A program made the translations under genes and the position numbers. From NCBI GenBank assembly GCA_040901445.1, contig JBBDYQ010000022.1, positions 62,001 through 126,000 on the forward strand: DNA of 64,000 bases. The letters run 5' to 3'. The DNA is from Thermoleophilaceae bacterium (lineage in GTDB: Bacteria > Actinomycetota > Thermoleophilia > Solirubrobacterales > Thermoleophilaceae). This document shows, one piece after another, positions 34,262-45,685 of this stretch. Each line of letters starts with the position of its first letter. The stretch's first letter is position 1. The notes under the pieces are model-generated. The model did no database searches. It saw nothing but the letters and a program-made list of their open reading frames with translations, and was not told the origin of the DNA.

Positions 34262-36285
<2,024 letters not shown>

Positions 36286-36286
<1 letters not shown>

Positions 36287-37314
36287 TGGCCAACCCGGTC
36301 CTCACACGCGCCATCGACACGGTCGCCTCCGGCCGCCACCTCGGCTCGGACGAGGCCGCCGCGGTCCTGCGAGAGATCATGGAGGGCAACGCTTCCGAGT
36401 CCGAGACGGCAGGCTTCCTCGTGGGCCTGCGCACGAAGGGCGAGACGGTCGCGGAGATCGTGGGCCTGGCGCGCACGATGCGCGAGCTGGCCCGCCGGGT
36501 GGAGCCCGCCCGCGACGGCCTGCTCGACACCGCGGGCACCGGTGGCGGCGCGCTCACCTTCAACGTGTCCACCACCGCCGCGCTCGTCGCGGCCGGGGCG
36601 GGGTGCCCCGTGGCCAAGCACGGCAACCGCTCCAGCACCAGCCAGTGCGGCTCCGCCGACGTGATCGAGGCGCTCGGGGCCCGTATCGACCTCGAGCCCG
36701 GCGCCGTGGCCGCCTGCATCGACGAGCTGGGCTTCGGCTTCATGTTCGCCCCGCTGCACCACCCGGCGATGAAGCACGTCGTGCCGGTTCGCAAGGCGCT
36801 CGCGGTGCGCACGATCTTCAACTTCCTCGGCCCGCTCACCAACCCCGCGGGCGCGGCCCACCAGGTGATCGGCGTCTCCGACCCCGCCTACGTCGAGGTG
36901 GTTGCGGCGGCGCTCGGAGAGCTCGGCGGCGCCAGTGCGCTGGTAGTGTCGAGCGAGGATGGGCTGGACGAGATCAGCGTCTCCGCGCCGACCCGCGTGG
37001 TCGAGGTGAGGGACGGCCGCATGGAGAGCTTCAGCGTGTCCCCCGAGGCGCTGGGCGTGGAGCCCGCGCCGCTCGACGAGCTCGGCGCCGGCACGCCCGA
37101 CCAGAACGCCGCCATCACCCGTGCGGTGCTCGACGGCGAGCCCGGTGGTCCACGCGCCGTCACGCTCATGAACGCCGGCGCGGCCATCTACGCGGCCGGC
37201 CGCGCGGACACCATGGCCGAAGGCGCGGCCGCGGCCGCGGCGGCCATCGACTCGGGCGCGGCCCGCGAGCTGCTGGAGCGCTTCGTGGCCCGCACCCGGG
37301 AGCTGGCCGCGTGA
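36286..37314 (+). CDS. trpD: Anthranilate phosphoribosyltransferase
   Basis: A 342-residue enzyme transferring phosphoribose from PRPP to anthranilate. PRPP-binding GTGGGALTFNVSTTAA replaces the more usual GTGGD, a variation that keeps the glycine-rich loop. KHGNRSSTSQCGSADVIEAL, HHPAMKHVVPVRKAL and RTIFNFLGPLTNPAG are all present. The ATG shares a base with the trpG stop, and the stop overlaps the trpC start. Confidence 0.95.
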
Positions 37315-38108
37315 CCGTGCGGCTGGACGACCTCGTCGGCGCCACCCGCCGGCGCCTCGAGGCGCGCAAGCGGGAGGTCCCGCTCCCCGAGCTCGAGCGC
37401 CGCATCGGCGAGGGCGGCCTCGCCCGCCCCTTCCGCGAGGCGCTGTCGCACCCCGGCACGTCCCTGATCGCCGAGCACAAGCGGCGCTCTCCGTCGGCGG
37501 GCACCATCCGCGAGGGCGCCACCGTCGTCGACATCGTCCGCGCCTATGAGCGCGGCGGCGCGGCGGCGCTGTCGATCCTCACGGAGGAGGCGCACTTCGG
37601 CGGCTCGCTGGCGGACCTCGACGAGGCCCGCGCCGCCTGCGACCTCCCGATCCTGCGCAAGGACTTCACGGTGGACCCCTACCAGCTGTACGAGGCCAAG
37701 GCGGCGGGCGCGGACGCGATCCTGCTGGTGGTGGGCAGCCTGCGTTCCGACGACCTCGCCTCCCTCTACGCGGAGACCCGGCGGCTGGACCTCGACGCGA
37801 TCGTGGAGATCCACGACGAGGCGGAGCTGGAGGCCGCGCTCGAGATCGACGCCGACGTGATCGGCATCAACAACCGCAACCTCGAGGACTTCTCGGTGGA
37901 CATCGGCCGCACCTTCGAGCTGCTGGCCGACGTGCCGGCCGGCAAGACCGTCGTCTCCGAGTCCGGCATCGCCTCGCGCGTCCAGGTGGACGAGCTCGAG
38001 GCGGTGGGCGTGGACGCGATCCTGGTGGGGGAGACCGTCATGCGCGCACCGGACCCCGAGGCCGCGGTGCGCGAGCTCAGCAGGTTCGAAGAGCCCACGC
38101 AGGCCTGA
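37311..38108 (+). CDS. trpC: Indole-3-glycerol phosphate synthase
   Basis: A 265-residue TIM-barrel enzyme converting CdRP to indole-3-glycerol phosphate. Key motifs: LIAEHKRRSPSAG with the catalytic lysine, LSILTEEAHFGGSLADL, LRKDFTVDPYQLYEAKAAGA, IGINNRNLEDFSVD and VVSESGI. The GTG overlaps the trpD stop. The next trp gene (trpF) lies 5.8 kb downstream, after a cell-envelope module. Confidence 0.95.
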   Translation: MTVRLDDLVGATRRRLEARKREVPLPELERRIGEGGLARPFREALSHPGTSLIAEHKRRSPSAGTIREGATVVDIVRAYERGGAAALSILTEEAHFGGSLADLDEARAACDLPILRKDFTVDPYQLYEAKAAGADAILLVVGSLRSDDLASLYAETRRLDLDAIVEIHDEAELEAALEIDADVIGINNRNLEDFSVDIGRTFELLADVPAGKTVVSESGIASRVQVDELEAVGVDAILVGETVMRAPDPEAAVRELSRFEEPTQA

Positions 38109-38152
38109 CGAACGTGATCCGCGGGGTTGCGGGTCTGCGTAACCTAGGGTCG

Positions 38153-39103
38153 ATGGCCACTGCGCCCGAGCTCGACCCGCCCGCCGTCGCCGCGCTCGGT
38201 CAGCGCATCGCACGGAACGTCGCGAGCGCGGTGAAGGTCCGGCGCGAGACCATGCGCCACGTGGTCGTCGCGCTGCTGGCCGACGGCCATGTCCTGGTCG
38301 AGGACTACCCGGGCGTGGGCAAGACCGCGCTGGCGCGCGCGCTCGCCCGCTCCGTGGACGCCGAGTGGGCCCGCATCCAGTGCACGGCGGACCTGCTCCC
38401 CTCGGACGTCGTGGGCACCAACGTCTTCAACCAGCGCGAGAACCGCTTCGAGTTCCGCCCCGGTCCCGTGTTCGCCAACGTCGTGCTCGTGGACGAGATC
38501 AACCGCGCGTCACCCAAGACCCAGTCGGGCCTGCTCGAGTGCATGCAGGAGCGCCACGTGACCGTGGACAAGCACACGCACGAGCTGGCCCGGCCCTTCG
38601 TGGTGCTCGCCACCCAGAACCCGGTGGAGTACGAGGGCACGTACCCGCTGCCCGAGGCCCAGCTGGACCGCTTCATGGTGCGCGTCTCACTGGGCTATCC
38701 GAGCGCCGACGACGAGGCCGAGATGCTCGCGGAGCACGCCGACCACGACCGCGTGCTCGACCTCGATCCCGTCACGGAGCTCTCCGAGGTCGTGGCCGCC
38801 CAGCAGGCCGTCGCCGCCGTGCACGCCAGCGACGCGCTCCGCCGCTACGTGGTCGCCATCCTCGACGCCACCCGGGGCGATCCGCGCGTGGAGCTCGGCG
38901 CCAGCCCGCGCGCGGGGCTGATGCTGCTCAAGGCGGCCAAGGGAAACGCGGCATTGGACACGCGCGACCACGCGTTGCCGGACGACGTCCAGGCCATGGC
39001 GGGCGCGGTGCTCACCCACCGCCTGCTCCTCGCCCCCGAGGCCGCGGATCGCGAGCGGGCCAACGTCGTGCGCGACGCCCTCGACCGCGTCCCGGCGCTC
39101 TAG
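38153..39103 (+). CDS. MoxR-family AAA+ ATPase
   Basis: A 316-residue MoxR chaperone-like ATPase. Walker A is [16 protein letters not shown], Walker B is [17 protein letters not shown], sensor 1 is [11 protein letters not shown], and the lid contains [23 protein letters not shown] at 38140-38145 lies seven bases before the ATG. It is the first gene of the conserved MoxR-DUF58-transglutaminase set, thought to aid assembly or maturation of a membrane complex; the exact substrate is unknown. Confidence 0.92.
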
Positions 39104-39110
39104 AGCGGCG

Positions 39111-40205
39111 GTGTCCCGCAGCCTCGGAGCCGCGGCCCTCGGGTTGGGGCTCGTGCTCTGCGGCGCCGCCTTCGACTCGCCGTCGCTGCACGTTCCCGGG
39201 GTGGTCCTGCTCCTTCTCGGCGGCGCGGCAGCCGCCTGGGTGTGGCTGGCCGACCGTGGAGCGCGCGTGCAGCGCGAGCTGGGCCCGCACGCGGTGCAGG
39301 AGGAGGAGCCCTACCCGGTGCGGCTGCGCTTCTCCGCCGGCGTCCTCCGGCCGCCCGGCGGCGAGCTCGTGGAGCCGCTGCTGGCCGAGCCGATCCCGGT
39401 CGGGCTCATACGCTCGCGCAGGGTGAGGGTGGAGGTTCGCTTCGGCCGCCGGGGACGGCGACCGATCGTGCCGGCCCGGCTGGTGGTCCGCGACCCACTG
39501 TCCCTGGCCGTGCGCGAGCGGCCGGTGGGACAGGCCGGCGAGGTCATCGTGCTGCCGCGCATCGAGCCGGTCCTGGCGCTGGACGGCGGCGGGTCGGGCG
39601 ACACGCTCGGCGAGCTCGGCGTGCCGCTCGCCTCGGCGGCCAGCGAGCTGGAGCTCGACAGCCTGAGGCCGTACCGTCCCGGCGCGCCGGCATCGCGCAT
39701 CCACTGGCCCACGGTGGCCCGCACGGGCGAGCTGATGGAGCGCAGGCTGGTGGGCGATCAGGACGCCCGGCCCGTCGTGGTGCTCGATCCCCGCCGCCCG
39801 CACTCGGAGGAGGCACTGGACATGGCCGTCCGCGCGGCGGCCTCCATCGCGCTCCGCGTGGCGCGCGAGAGCGGCTGCTCGCTGCTGCTGCCCGGCGACC
39901 GCAGGCCGGTGGAGATCGAGCCGGACCTGCGGGGCTGGCCGGCGCTGCACGTGCGCCTGGCGCTCGTGGCCGAGACCGCCGAGCCGCCCGCAGCCGCCCG
40001 GCTCCAACGCGCCGGCACGATCTTCTGGGTCAGCCCTGCAAGCGGCGACCGGCTGCCCGCCGGGCTCGAGCGCGCCGGGGCGTCGGTGCGCTACCTCGTG
40101 GCACCCGGCGATGCCGCGGGTGCCGGCACGCCCGCCTTCAGCGTGGCGGGCTGCACGGGCTGCAGGCTCGGCCGTGGCCGGGGCCGGGGGCGGGTGGCGG
40201 CGTGA
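39111..40205 (+). CDS. DUF58-family membrane protein
   Basis: A 364-residue protein with one or two N-terminal membrane helices (about residues 4-45), a beta-rich middle, and the DUF58 core LDSLRPYRPGAPASRIHWPT followed by VARTGELMERRL. A von Willebrand-like fold follows (RPVVVLDPRRPHSEEALDMA). The C-terminus is a run of Arg/Gly. It sits eight bases after moxR and shares a GTGA with the transglutaminase gene, the usual three-gene arrangement. Confidence 0.87.
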   Translation: MSRSLGAAALGLGLVLCGAAFDSPSLHVPGVVLLLLGGAAAAWVWLADRGARVQRELGPHAVQEEEPYPVRLRFSAGVLRPPGGELVEPLLAEPIPVGLIRSRRVRVEVRFGRRGRRPIVPARLVVRDPLSLAVRERPVGQAGEVIVLPRIEPVLALDGGGSGDTLGELGVPLASAASELELDSLRPYRPGAPASRIHWPTVARTGELMERRLVGDQDARPVVVLDPRRPHSEEALDMAVRAAASIALRVARESGCSLLLPGDRRPVEIEPDLRGWPALHVRLALVAETAEPPAAARLQRAGTIFWVSPASGDRLPAGLERAGASVRYLVAPGDAAGAGTPAFSVAGCTGCRLGRGRGRGRVAA

Positions 40206-42535
40206 GCGGTGTCGCCACGCGGCCGCGCGCCGGGGCCAGGTCTTGCACTGCACCAGGGGCCTTCGGCCCGAGTTCTGTTGCAGTGCAAGACCTGGCCCCG
40301 GTCGGCCGGCTGGGCATCAGGCTCGTTGCCTTTGGAGCGTTGAGCATCTACGTCGTCGGTCATTGGGGCGGGCTCGTCGAGGCGGCGCCGACGTCGCGGC
40401 TGGCCGCCGTGGCCGCCATCGCCACGGGCGCGGGCGCGCTGCTGGTGGCGACCGCGCGTCTGGGCGGGGTGCGCGGCACGGTCGCCCGGGCGGCCGTGGC
40501 GGTGGCCGCGCTGGCGGCGGGCCTGGCGGTCGTCGGGCTGGATGCGCGGCTGCTGCTGCCGGGCAACTGGGACGAGCTGGGGGAGGGCCTCGACCAGGGG
40601 CTGGCCGGCCTGCGCACCGTCGACTGGCCATACGGCGGCTCGGACGAGTGGGTGCGCCAGGTGCTGCTGCTCGGCGCGCCCGCGCTCGCCGTCACGGCGG
40701 GGCTGCTGGCGTTCTGGCCCGCGCGCCGGGGCGCGGGCCTCCTGCGCGCACTCGGACTCGTGCTGCTGCTCGTGGTCTACGGCGTGGCCGTCACCGAGCG
40801 CGACTTCGGCGCCGAGCTGCTGCGCGGCGCGGGCCTCGCCCTGCTGGTGGGCCTCTGGCTCTGGGCGCCGCACTCCCGCGGCCGCGAGGCGGGGGCCGTG
40901 GCCCTGGTGGTGGCCTCGGCCACGCTGTTCGCGGTCCCCGTGGCCTCCAGCCTCGACCGCGAGGCACCCTGGCTCGACTATCGCCAGTGGAACTGGTTCG
41001 GCACCATCGGCGGCACCGCCTTCGACTGGAGCCACTCCTACGGGCCCATCGACTGGTCGCGCGACGGCACCACGGTCCTGCGCGTCAAGGCGGAGCGGGC
41101 GCTCTACTGGAAGGTGGAGGTGCAGGACCGCTTCGACGGCTTCCGCTGGGTCCGCTCGGGCGCGGGTGCCGAGACGCCGCCCGGCGTCGAGCTCCCGCAG
41201 GAGCTCAACCCGGCCTGGGAGGAGTCGGCCGAGTTCACGGTCCGCGAGCTGCGCAGCGATCTCGCCGTGGTCACCGGCACGCCCCTGCGGGTGGAGGGGC
41301 TGGGCGCCACCGACACGGCGGTGGACGGCACCACCAGCTCGCGCGAGGGCCAGCTTCGCGAGGGCGAGAGCTACAGCGTGTCGGCCTACGTGCCCAATCC
41401 GAGCAGGCGGCAGCTGCGCGCCACGCCGGAGCACTGGAGCGACTACTTCCGCCGCTACCTGCGCATCGACCTGCCGCCCGAGGGCGTCACCAACCTCGAG
41501 GGCACCGGCCGTGCGGGCGACGCAGCCCGCTCTGCCGTCGCACCCGCAGCCACCGTGGCCATGCCCTTCCGAGGCGACGTGCGCCCGCCCGAGACGGCCG
41601 CGACCGAGCTACTCCTGCTCGACTCCCCGTACCGGCGCACCTTCGGGCTCGCGCAGCGGCTCACGGCGGGCGCGCCCACGACCTACGACGCCGTGAAGGC
41701 CATCGAGAGCCACCTGCTGGAGAACTTCCGCTACAGCGAGCGCCCGCCGTCCCAGGAGTACCCGCTCGAGGCGTTCCTGTTCGAGGACCGGGCGGGCTAC
41801 TGCCAGCAGTTCTCCGGCGCCATGGCGCTCATGCTGCGGATGGTGGGCATCCCGGCGCGCGTCGTCGGGGGCTTCGCGCCCGGCTCGTTCAACCGCGACG
41901 AGGACGAGTTCCGGGTCCGCGACCTCGACGCCCACTCCTGGGTGGAGGTCCACTTCAGCGGCCTCGGCTGGATCCAGTTCGACCCCACGCCGTCGGGGGC
42001 GCCCGCGGGGTCGCGGGCAGAGCCACGCGAGGCCGCCAGCTCGGCAACGGGCAGCACCGACCCGGGCCGCGGCGAGGGCGTTGCGGCGGAGCGCGAAAGC
42101 GACACCGGCGGAGGCGCCGGCGCGACCGGCGGCGACGGCGATGCGCTGCCGTTCTGGGCCGTGCCGGCCATGCTCGGTGGGCTGGTGGCCGCCGGCATCC
42201 TGGCCGCCTGGCTGCTCGCGGCGATCCAGCGGCGGCGCGACAGCGCCGGGGCCGAGGGGCCGCTGCGGGAGCTCACGCGGGCGCTGGGGCGGCTGGGCTA
42301 TCCGCTGCCGGCGCATACCACCCTGCTCGCCCTCGAACGGCGCCTGGCCCGGGCGGTCGGGCCGTGCTCGGCCGCGTACGTGCGCGCGCTGCGCGACGTC
42401 CGCTACGGGGGCAACGGGGCCGTGCTTCCCGGCCCGGCGCAACGGCGCGCGCTGCGCGGCGAGCTCGCACGCCGGCGCGGGCTGCTGGGGAGGCTGCGCG
42501 GCTGGGCCGCGCTGCCCCCATTTAGACGGAGTTAA
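40202..42535 (+). CDS. Membrane-anchored transglutaminase-like protein
   Basis: A 777-residue protein with an N-terminal cluster of six or seven membrane helices (about residues 37-240, DUF3488-like), an extracytoplasmic region, and a transglutaminase-like core with the Cys-His-Asp triad: GYCQQFSGAMALMLRMVGI near residue 533, DAHSWVEVHF near 577 and QFDPTPSG near 592. A further membrane helix near residue 650 and a DUF4129-like tail follow. The GTG at 40202 overlaps the DUF58 stop, but residues 10-34 are encoded by a perfect palindrome; GTG at 40283, inside the palindrome, is an alternative start. Function is probably in envelope protein processing. Confidence 0.85.
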   Translation: MSGVATRPRAGARSCTAPGAFGPSSVAVQDLAPVGRLGIRLVAFGALSIYVVGHWGGLVEAAPTSRLAAVAAIATGAGALLVATARLGGVRGTVARAAVAVAALAAGLAVVGLDARLLLPGNWDELGEGLDQGLAGLRTVDWPYGGSDEWVRQVLLLGAPALAVTAGLLAFWPARRGAGLLRALGLVLLLVVYGVAVTERDFGAELLRGAGLALLVGLWLWAPHSRGREAGAVALVVASATLFAVPVASSLDREAPWLDYRQWNWFGTIGGTAFDWSHSYGPIDWSRDGTTVLRVKAERALYWKVEVQDRFDGFRWVRSGAGAETPPGVELPQELNPAWEESAEFTVRELRSDLAVVTGTPLRVEGLGATDTAVDGTTSSREGQLREGESYSVSAYVPNPSRRQLRATPEHWSDYFRRYLRIDLPPEGVTNLEGTGRAGDAARSAVAPAATVAMPFRGDVRPPETAATELLLLDSPYRRTFGLAQRLTAGAPTTYDAVKAIESHLLENFRYSERPPSQEYPLEAFLFEDRAGYCQQFSGAMALMLRMVGIPARVVGGFAPGSFNRDEDEFRVRDLDAHSWVEVHFSGLGWIQFDPTPSGAPAGSRAEPREAASSATGSTDPGRGEGVAAERESDTGGGAGATGGDGDALPFWAVPAMLGGLVAAGILAAWLLAAIQRRRDSAGAEGPLRELTRALGRLGYPLPAHTTLLALERRLARAVGPCSAAYVRALRDVRYGGNGAVLPGPAQRRALRGELARRRGLLGRLRGWAALPPFRRS
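40230..40301. repeat. Perfect 23-bp inverted repeat (REP/MITE-like palindrome)
   Basis: Arms at 40230-40252 (beginning CCGGGGCCAGGTCTTGCA) and 40279-40301 (ending GACCTGGCCCCGG) are exact complements over 23 bp. The 26-base loop contains a second hairpin, GGGCC (40257-40261) and GGCCC (40265-40269). The arm sequence resembles palindromes I associate with REP-type transposases, but no transposase is present. It lies in frame at the start of the transglutaminase gene. Confidence 0.85.
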
Positions 42536-42562
42536 GCTCGACCGCCTAGAACTCCGGGGCAT

Positions 42563-43801
42563 ATGAACCGCCTCCGAATCCCGAACTTCCTCTCCGGCGT
42601 CCTCGGCGGCCTCGTGGTCCTCGTCGCGGGCGCCGTCCTCATCGCCACCGACGTCATCGACACGGGCGACACCGTGAACGAGGTCGTCCAGTCGCCGATC
42701 ACCGAGCCCGCCGCCGACCGCGGCGACGGCGAGGGCCTCACAGTGAGCGAGATCTACGACCGCGACGGCCCGGGCGTCGTCTTCATCGAGGCCCGGGGCG
42801 TAAGCGGTGACTCCCCGTTCGGGACCCCGAACGAGGGCCGGGCCACCGGGTCGGGCTTCGTGCTCGAGGACGAGGGCTTCATCCTGACCAACGCCCACGT
42901 GGTGGAGGGCGCCGACGACATCGGCATACGCTTCGGGGAAGGCAGCACGGTCGAAGCCGAGCTGGTCGGCACCGACCCGTCCACCGACCTGGCGGTGCTG
43001 AAGGTCGACCCCGACGAGGCGGAGCTGCGCCCGCTGCGTCTCGGCGACTCGAGCGAGGTCGACGTCGGCGATCCGACGATCGCCATCGGCAACCCCTTCG
43101 GGCTCGACCGCACCGTGACCACCGGAATCGTGTCCGCGATCCAGCGCACGATCGAGGCCCCCAACGGCTTCTCGATCGACAATGCGATCCAGACCGACGC
43201 CTCGATCAACCCCGGCAACTCGGGTGGCCCGCTCCTGGACGCCACGGGGCGGGTGATCGGCATCAACTCCCAGATCGCCACGGGCGGCGGCGGTGGGTCG
43301 GTGGGCATCGGCTTCGCGGTCCCGATCAACACCGCCAAGGCCGTCATCCCGCAGCTGAAGGAGGACGGCGAGGTGCAGCGCGCCTACCTCGGCGTGAGCA
43401 CGCTCACCGTGGACGAGCGCACCGCCGAGGACCTCAACCTGCCGGCGCAGGCGGGCGCGCTGGTCCAGCGGGTGTTCGACGGCGGCCCGGCGGACGAGGC
43501 CGGCCTGCGCGCCGGGCGCACGCCCACCGCGGACGGCGTCACGGCGGGCGGCGACCTGATCGTGAAGGTCGACGGCGTGGAGATCGGCGAGTCGAGCGAC
43601 GTTGCCGCGGCCATCGCCGACAACAAGCCGGGTGACGAGATCGAGATCGAGTTCTTCCGCGGCGACGACCGCGAGAAGGTGACGGTGGAGCTCGGGGAGC
43701 GACCCGAGGAGACGCCGTCGCAGGGCGGCCCGGACGGCGGTCGACCCTCCCCGCCCGACGAGCCGGACGACCAGGGACCGGAGCTGTTCCCATTCCCCTA
43801 G
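42563..43801 (+). CDS. HtrA/DegP-like membrane-anchored serine protease
   Basis: A 412-residue S1C protease. An N-terminal membrane helix (about residues 10-29) anchors it outside the membrane. The catalytic triad is complete: His in TNAHVVEGAD, Asp in STDLAVLKV, Ser in INPGNSGGPLLDATG. One PDZ domain follows (about residues 270-375), then a proline/acid-rich tail (PSQGGPDGGRPSPPDEPDDQ). It handles misfolded or envelope proteins. It lies 27 bases after the transglutaminase gene and is closed by a strong terminator. Confidence 0.92.
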   Translation: MNRLRIPNFLSGVLGGLVVLVAGAVLIATDVIDTGDTVNEVVQSPITEPAADRGDGEGLTVSEIYDRDGPGVVFIEARGVSGDSPFGTPNEGRATGSGFVLEDEGFILTNAHVVEGADDIGIRFGEGSTVEAELVGTDPSTDLAVLKVDPDEAELRPLRLGDSSEVDVGDPTIAIGNPFGLDRTVTTGIVSAIQRTIEAPNGFSIDNAIQTDASINPGNSGGPLLDATGRVIGINSQIATGGGGGSVGIGFAVPINTAKAVIPQLKEDGEVQRAYLGVSTLTVDERTAEDLNLPAQAGALVQRVFDGGPADEAGLRAGRTPTADGVTAGGDLIVKVDGVEIGESSDVAAAIADNKPGDEIEIEFFRGDDREKVTVELGERPEETPSQGGPDGGRPSPPDEPDDQGPELFPFP

Positions 43802-43828
43802 CCGCCCGGTAGGACCGCACCCCCAAGG

Positions 43829-43863
43829 CACGAAGCCCCCGGCTCCCCGCCGGGGGCTTCGTG
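43829..43863 (+). terminator. Strong terminator hairpin after htrA
   Basis: CACGAAGCCCCCGGC (43829-43843) and GCCGGGGGCTTCGTG (43849-43863) form a perfect 15-bp stem with a five-base loop, 28 bases after the htrA stop. No T tract follows, as is usual at high GC. It separates the envelope module from trpFBA. Confidence 0.8.
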
Positions 43864-43883
43864 TGCCTGCCACCATTGAACCG

Positions 43884-44528
43884 ATGACCAGCATCAAGAT
43901 CTGCGGCATCAGCCGTTCCGAGGACGCCCGACTGGCGGTCGAGTGCGGCGCCTGGGCCATCGGCCTGGTCTTCTGGCCTCACAGCCCGCGCCGCTGCGAG
44001 CTCGACGCGGCGCAGGAGATCGCGGCCGAGCTGCGGCGGGAGGTGGAGATCGTGGGCGTGTTCAGCGACGCCACGCTGGACGACGTGACCGCTGTCGCCG
44101 AGGTCGTGCCGCTGTCGATCCTCCAGCTCCACGGGCACGAGGGCCCCGCCTACTGCCGTGAGGCCGCTCGTCGCACCGGCGCGAAGGTGATGAAGGCCGC
44201 GCGCGTGCGCGATCAGGCCGGCATACGCGCGCTAGAGCCCTTCCACACCGAGCTCCACCTGCTCGACGCCCACTCGCCGCACGCCCCCGGCGGCACGGGC
44301 GAGCAGTTCGACTGGGGGCTCGCCGCCCATCATCCGCGCAACGTGCCGGTTGTGCTCTCCGGCGGGCTCACCCCCGAGAGCGTGGGGGAGGGAATCGCGG
44401 CCGTGCGCCCGTTCGCGGTGGACACGGCCAGCGGCACCGAGGCAGAGCCAGGCCGCAAGGACGAGGCGAAGGTGCGGGCCTTCTTCCGGGCGGTCGCCGC
44501 CGCCGACGAGAAGGCCGCGGCCGCATGA
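43884..44528 (+). CDS. trpF: Phosphoribosylanthranilate isomerase
   Basis: A 214-residue TIM-barrel isomerase. Typical motifs are [20 protein letters not shown] with the catalytic cysteine, [52 protein letters not shown] and [20 protein letters not shown], and the aspartate in VDTASGTE. It restarts the trp pathway after the moxR-htrA module and overlaps trpB by four bases. Its own promoter is not obvious because the preceding 80 bases are mostly terminator. Confidence 0.94.
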
Positions 44529-45685
44529 CCGTCGGAGTCGAGGAGCGCTTCGGCCCCTACGGGGGCCGCTACGTGCCCGAGACCCTGATCCCGGCGCTCG
44601 ACGAGCTGGCACGGGCATGGGTCGAGGCCAAGGCGGACCCCGGCTACCGGGCCGAGCTCGAGGGCCTCGCGCGCGACTACGTGGGCCGCCCCACGCCGCT
44701 GTACCTCGCCGAGCGCCTGTCCGAGGCGGCCGGTCGCACGACCTATCTCAAGCGAGAGGACCTCAACCACACCGGCTCGCACAAGATCAACAACGCCGTT
44801 GGCCAGGTGCTGCTCGCCCGCCGCATGGGCAAGCGCCGCATCATCGCCGAGACGGGCGCGGGCCAGCACGGCGTGGCCACCGCCACGGCCTGTGCGCTCT
44901 TCGACACCGAGTGCGTCGTGTACATGGGCACCGAGGACATGCGCCGGCAGAAGCCCAACGTCGAGCGCATGCGCCTGCTCGGCGCCGAGGTTTCCGGGGT
45001 GGATGCCGGGGCGCGCACGCTCAAGGAGGCGGTGAGCGCCGCGATCCGCGACTGGGTGGCCAACGTGGGCGACACCCATTACGTGATCGGCTCGGCCGTG
45101 GGCCCCGCGCCCTATCCCGCGCTCGTGCGCGACCTTCAGCGCACCATCGGAGACGAGACGCGCGCGCAGGTGCTCGAGGCTGAGGGGCGCCTTCCGGACC
45201 GGGTGCTGGCCTGCGTGGGCGGCGGCTCCAACTCGATCGGCATGTTCGCGGGCTTCACCGCCGACGAGGGCGTGGAGCTGATCGGCGTCGAGGCGGCGGG
45301 GGAGGGGCTGGAGTCGGGCCGCCACAGCGCCCCGCTCACCACCGGCGCGCGCGGCATCCTCCACGGCGCACTGTCCGCCGTGTTGCAGGACGACGAGGGC
45401 CAGATCCTCGAGGCGCACTCCATCTCGGCCGGCCTCGACTATCCGGGCTCCGGCCCCGAGCACGCCTTCCTGCGCGACACGCGGAGGGCCCGCTACGTGG
45501 CGGTGGAGGACTCGGAAGCGGTGGCGGCGTTCAAGCGGCTGTCGGTGCTCGAGGGCATCATCCCCGCGCTCGAGCCGGCGCATGCGATCGCATGGGCGCT
45601 CGCCAACCCAGGCGGCGAGCTCGACGTCATCACCCTCTCGGGACGCGGGGACAAGGACCTGGCCGAGGTGCTGGGCCTTGAGTGA
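44525..45685 (+). CDS. trpB: Tryptophan synthase beta chain
   Basis: A 386-residue PLP enzyme condensing indole with serine. Motifs: [40 protein letters not shown] with the PLP lysine, [29 protein letters not shown] for phosphate binding, and [17 protein letters not shown]. It is the TrpB1 type, consistent with the adjacent trpA. Its end overlaps the trpA start. Confidence 0.96.

Follow-up and report, generated by a model that had tools for sequence, protein, structure and literature searches.

The palindrome near the start of a transglutaminase-like gene is best explained, with a probability of roughly 0.84, as a non-autonomous mobile dimer of TIRYT-type ends that was amplified in trans and is tolerated in frame. 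The gene lies in the window, the whole 64,000-nucleotide stretch of DNA that was analysed, which belongs to a 3.54 Mb genome assembled in 25 contigs; all window features described here are on the forward (+) strand. The element would be made of two terminal inverted repeats of a TIRYT-type (HUH, Y1) transposon arranged head to head and would resemble a MITE or a REPIN. We infer that a Y1 transposase of the GGGGWSAS/TIRYT group acted in trans and amplified about 25 dimers in the lineage, presumably by recognising their folded single-stranded ends. Its gene is absent from the 25-contig assembly, where it may have been lost or left unassembled, and mobilisation in this genome is put forward as a proposal. 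One copy would have entered the transglutaminase gene in the variable N-terminal leader that precedes the first conserved domain. Since the insert keeps the reading frame and contains no stop codon, the protein would gain about 24 residues and the insertion would be tolerated, probably with a neutral or nearly neutral effect. Such an event is of a mostly known type; the orphan state of the family and its possible spread by overwriting are the surprising part, not the position of this copy.

The palindrome and its host gene

Two exact reverse-complement arms of 23 bp, CCGGGGCCAGGTCTTGCACTGCA (left, 40230-40252) and TGCAGTGCAAGACCTGGCCCCGG (right, 40279-40301), enclose a loop of 26 nt that contains an inner hairpin, GGGCC-TTC-GGCCC (40257-40269). 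Arms, loop and second hairpin had all been described in the sequence-only reading and were reproduced. The palindrome at 40230-40301 is the strongest among the short-range inverted repeats of the window. Folded alone, the element reaches -63.8 kcal/mol as RNA (z -10.8) and -38.5 kcal/mol as DNA (z -10.8), about 11 SD below shuffled sequences in both cases, and none of 200 shuffles was as stable. The repeated unit is the 68 nt running from GGGG to CCCC at 40232-40299 (GGGGCCAGGTCTTGC...GCAAGACCTGGCCCC), a putative solo TIR dimer that, this one included, is present as 25 full copies genome-wide; the outer CC/GG is absent from the other copies.

The upstream gene encodes a DUF58 protein (39111-40205; Pfam match slightly under the cut-off), and its stop codon TGA (40203-40205) is overlapped by the GTG of the transglutaminase gene (40202-40204), forming GTGA. 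As had been claimed, the frame opened by this GTG passes through the element and into the transglutaminase-like protein (40202-42535 including the element; TgpA_N and Transglut_core by Pfam) with no stop. Example peptides encoded upstream of and within the left arm are VATRPR and SCTAPGAFGPSSVAVQDLAPVGR, and the first Pfam domain begins at residue 51, downstream of the element. The two genes form part of a series of MoxR, DUF58, transglutaminase and HtrA-like genes at 35726-45685, located between trp-biosynthesis-like frames; in this neighbourhood Pfam was run on MoxR, DUF58 and transglutaminase, and the other genes were named by eye from their translations.

Nearly all family relatives that have the DUF58-transglutaminase junction keep an overlapping [A/G]TGA start, and on this comparison GTG 40202 is the native start because the relatives share the same stop-start overlap. 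In the relatives, a leader of mostly 9-37 residues (91 in one) is encoded ahead of the conserved LVAFGAL segment; in the window the leader measures 40 residues with the element included. At the junction family relatives lack the palindrome, and no perfect inverted repeat near their start exceeds 11 bp, versus 23 bp here; this comparison covers family-level relatives, with no second species of the same genus among them. Across 232 genomes of the order, the exact 15-nt end occurs in three, including the window's own, and is absent from 229. The palindrome is not native to the operon. Perfect symmetry and high stability would also be expected of a conserved regulatory hairpin belonging to the operon, an explanation whose chance is nevertheless next to negligible: full copies occupy 25 unrelated sites, the relatives' junction is without the palindrome, and Rfam yields animal microRNA hairpins only, which were rejected as chance matches on their sub-threshold scores. 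The sequence-only reading had called the palindrome mobile rather than native, which agrees with 25 copies in place of a single copy conserved at this site.

The same reading had placed the landing site exactly at the gene junction and had proposed that the palindrome either created a new N-terminus or buried the start codon, and these parts did not hold. About 30 nt of coding sequence precede the element, and relatives keep the native start codon. An in-frame GTG does lie inside the right arm (40283-40285), as had been noted, and deletion of exactly 68 nt would put an upstream GTG at 40209 in frame with the gene body. Even so, it is very unlikely that the palindrome makes a new start, through use of GTG 40283 or through displacement of the start by insertion: the overlapping [A/G]TGA start is kept in relatives, and GTG 40283 is judged an implausible start, since in the opening-energy model about 46 kcal/mol would be needed to free it from the stem. 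By eye, no clear Shine-Dalgarno sequence precedes it. Models of the start region, run once on the sequence that includes the element and once on the sequence lacking it, gave no consistent sign that GTG 40202 is occluded: the energy of opening this region shifts by a few kcal/mol in either direction depending on the folding window used. The element thus does not appear to create a start codon, nor does it clearly bury the native one.

A mobile palindrome may also have become regulatory, its 23-bp RNA stem now lowering transglutaminase output. The stem is perfect and very stable and sits in an operon tightly coupled by the GTGA overlap, and a duplex of about 23 bp is long enough for RNase III. 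Regulation of this kind is nonetheless unlikely, and the routes proposed for it, slowed early elongation or an RNase III-like cut between the DUF58 and transglutaminase cistrons, are similarly improbable. The initiation footprint ends before about 28 nt downstream of a start codon, and the stem begins about 28 nt past GTG 40202; the energy of opening the start region changes inconsistently; no T-tract of the terminator type was found after the main stem; and most of the other copies lie between genes, among which no shared function was noticed. Read most simply, the element is an insertion of about 72 nt that keeps the frame of a variable leader and is tolerated there; the transglutaminase probably becomes about 24 amino acids longer without harm. 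Apparent N-terminal extensions can thus be the footprints of mobile elements.

Genomic copies and Y1 transposases

The exact end 15-mer, GGGGTCAGGTCTTGC, occurs 38 times in the window's genome versus 0 for a reversed-pattern control, and with up to two mismatches the counts are 66 and 12. The 25 full palindromes are 41-74 nt long with ends GGGGTCAGGTC[T/A/G]TGC, a copy number that marks a mobile family, and about 11 single arms occur beside them. Over the first 20 arm positions, 97% are paired within copies versus a mean of 85% (maximum 89%) after arms are shuffled among copies; therefore, the two arms change together. The window copy shares its type of loop with about 10 other copies of the genome, and none of the 82 palindromes taken from elsewhere has it; this local distribution points to amplification of the palindrome in this lineage.

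Most copies are intergenic and about 5 of the 25 are intragenic, the gene calls around copies being approximate. Besides the window copy, four full palindromes are in frame: one in the middle of a DUF455 protein (L046:1497-1551; C6:18926 onward), where two relatives have an unrelated linker, one each at the C-terminus of a CofH-like protein and of an MFS transporter, and one in a membrane-protein-like ORF. The insert lengths modulo 3 (68 nt here, 55 nt at L046) fit no single constant insertion rule, and some events would therefore have involved deletion or replacement.

In a full-palindrome scan of GTDB contigs, at least 120 contigs spread over many phyla proved to have the same inverted-paired ends, and 34 of 41 genomes having such palindromes carry a Y1_Tnp gene. 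Arms of the 82 palindromes from elsewhere are 79% paired versus at most 54% when shuffled. In five of the genomes (L205, L208, L212, L213 and L214) a Y1/HTH gene lies between inverted copies of these ends, which are about 930-970 bp apart. The flanked Y1 proteins are approximately 275-300 aa long, with a conserved NHYHL and a C-terminal GxHYxxxSR helix-turn-helix (alignment A1), and they match REP_Tyr_transpos (NF047646), one above the cut-off and the other below it. Viral contigs yielded one matching palindrome, which leaves phages unsupported as carriers, and the exact end 15-mer was not found in the literature searched.

The sequence-only reading had likened the arms to REP-type palindromes moved by RAYT transposases. 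Its broader part stands, in that the element is of a multi-copy, Y1-associated kind; the ends, however, are of the TIRYT/TIRtron type (GGGGWSAS) and are not GTAG REPs. A classical GTAG-REP or REPIN moved by an E. coli- or Pseudomonas-type RAYT would share the inverted doublet forming one hairpin, the many and mostly intergenic copies and the association with Y1 genes elsewhere. It is exceedingly unlikely here, as the ends are without the GTAG tag, single arms form no GTAG-tagged hairpin of their own, and the flanked transposases have a C-terminal HTH and TIRs GGGGTCAG that assign them to TIRYT/subclass 2.1 (PMC3733652, PMC6006769).

A Y1 or RAYT transposase was also sought in the window's genome. 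PF01797 gave no candidate, and a six-protein TIRYT alignment (A1) gave weak HTH-like segments only (E >= 0.007) and no Y1; in 30 family relatives PF01797 had no match. Because no Y1 gene is detectable, the genome's copies would be orphan, non-autonomous TIR dimers, unless the 25-contig assembly lost a repeated transposon. At the level of the order, Y1 transposases occur in two genomes (L246, L247 and L252), and at L246 GTCAGACCCC repeats lie on both sides, an end motif that is related but not the same. The family is a clear case of orphan transposon ends, near-identical across many phyla and amplified in one lineage; no transposase is left visible, and proteins tolerate in-frame copies of the ends.

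Single arms in conserved genes

Two single arms lie within conserved genes and are made up of rare codons. In HemL, 25 of 26 nt match the arm at the conserved AGSGLATQ motif (L014:1490-1515; C1:180861-180875), and the alignment of this region with 15 relatives is gap-free. In a methyltransferase gene the match is 27 of 27 nt (L045:1496-1522; C25:556955 onward), and the region is gap-free against most of the relatives shown, with one extra residue in two. The joint synonymous probability is about 2e-7 for HemL and about 2e-6 for the methyltransferase, before correction for the sites searched. These two clear cases suggest that single arms overwrote codons instead of inserting. A more general mode of spread, in which short arm tracts of the TIR ends are also copied into partly similar coding sequence with length unchanged, is a tentative and unlikely extension of this, and ectopic conversion or template switching as the copying route is likewise improbable. 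The window copy and the DUF455 copy, which apparently replaces a linker, may be partly of overwriting origin. Should the gap-free single arms in conserved genes be confirmed, it would become possible to test how such palindromes spread.

Other single arms were seen. A DNA-ligase gene carries a TIR arm of 26 of 28 nt (L051:1482-1509) that is not alignable to solved structures. An arm in a glycine-oxidase-like gene (L057) was set aside: it coincides with a native KGQVL motif and matches at 18 of 20 positions only, and chance may account for it. A further arm lies at the end of contig C5 (L006:1497-1639) and is followed by a short gene start; this frame was checked at the contig end as a possible transposase start and is not TIRYT-like.

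Comparison with known systems

Palindromes read in frame within unrelated protein genes are also known from the Rickettsia palindromic elements, which are about 150 bp long and lie mostly within ORFs (PMC10969869). The present elements differ in their length of 41-74 bp, in that about 5 of 25 are intragenic, and in their unrelated sequence. REPINs and GTAG REPs provide a second parallel, with an inverted doublet forming one hairpin, compensatory changes between arms and a mostly intergenic location; REPs inside genes are also known (PMC3116915, PMC2817692). In contrast to GTAG REP/RAYT systems, there is no GTAG at the hairpin foot, and the ends are GGGG/CCCC with unrelated flanks. In contrast to REPIN/RAYT systems, individual REP hairpins are missing, the transposase is of another subgroup, and it is absent from this genome.

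Di Nocera et al. (2013, PMC3733652) introduced the name TIRYT for Y1 genes bordered by TIRs; these TIRs have the motif GGGGWSAS in common and also occur as dispersed dimers. An HTH is present at the C-terminus of TIRYTs (PMC3733652; PMC6006769), and a 2018 survey of HuH proteins assigned the majority to subclass 2.1, with HTH domains in the C-terminal position (PMC6006769). The window's genome differs from a complete TIRtron in having dimers with no detectable transposase. The window copy also ends in GGGGCCAG in both arms, where C replaces W at position 5 of GGGGWSAS, and is alone among the genome's copies in having C/G at this position in both arms. Further differences are the loop type, local to the lineage among the samples examined, and the in-frame intragenic copies. 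By their sequence, the ends are nevertheless those of the TIRYT/TIRtron group and not of the GTAG-REP/RAYT group: the family ends GGGGTCAG fit the TIR motif GGGGWSAS, in other genomes inverted ends enclose a Y1 HUH transposase that has an HTH at its C-terminus, and the TIR dimers are dispersed as a repeat family, here of 25 full palindromes.
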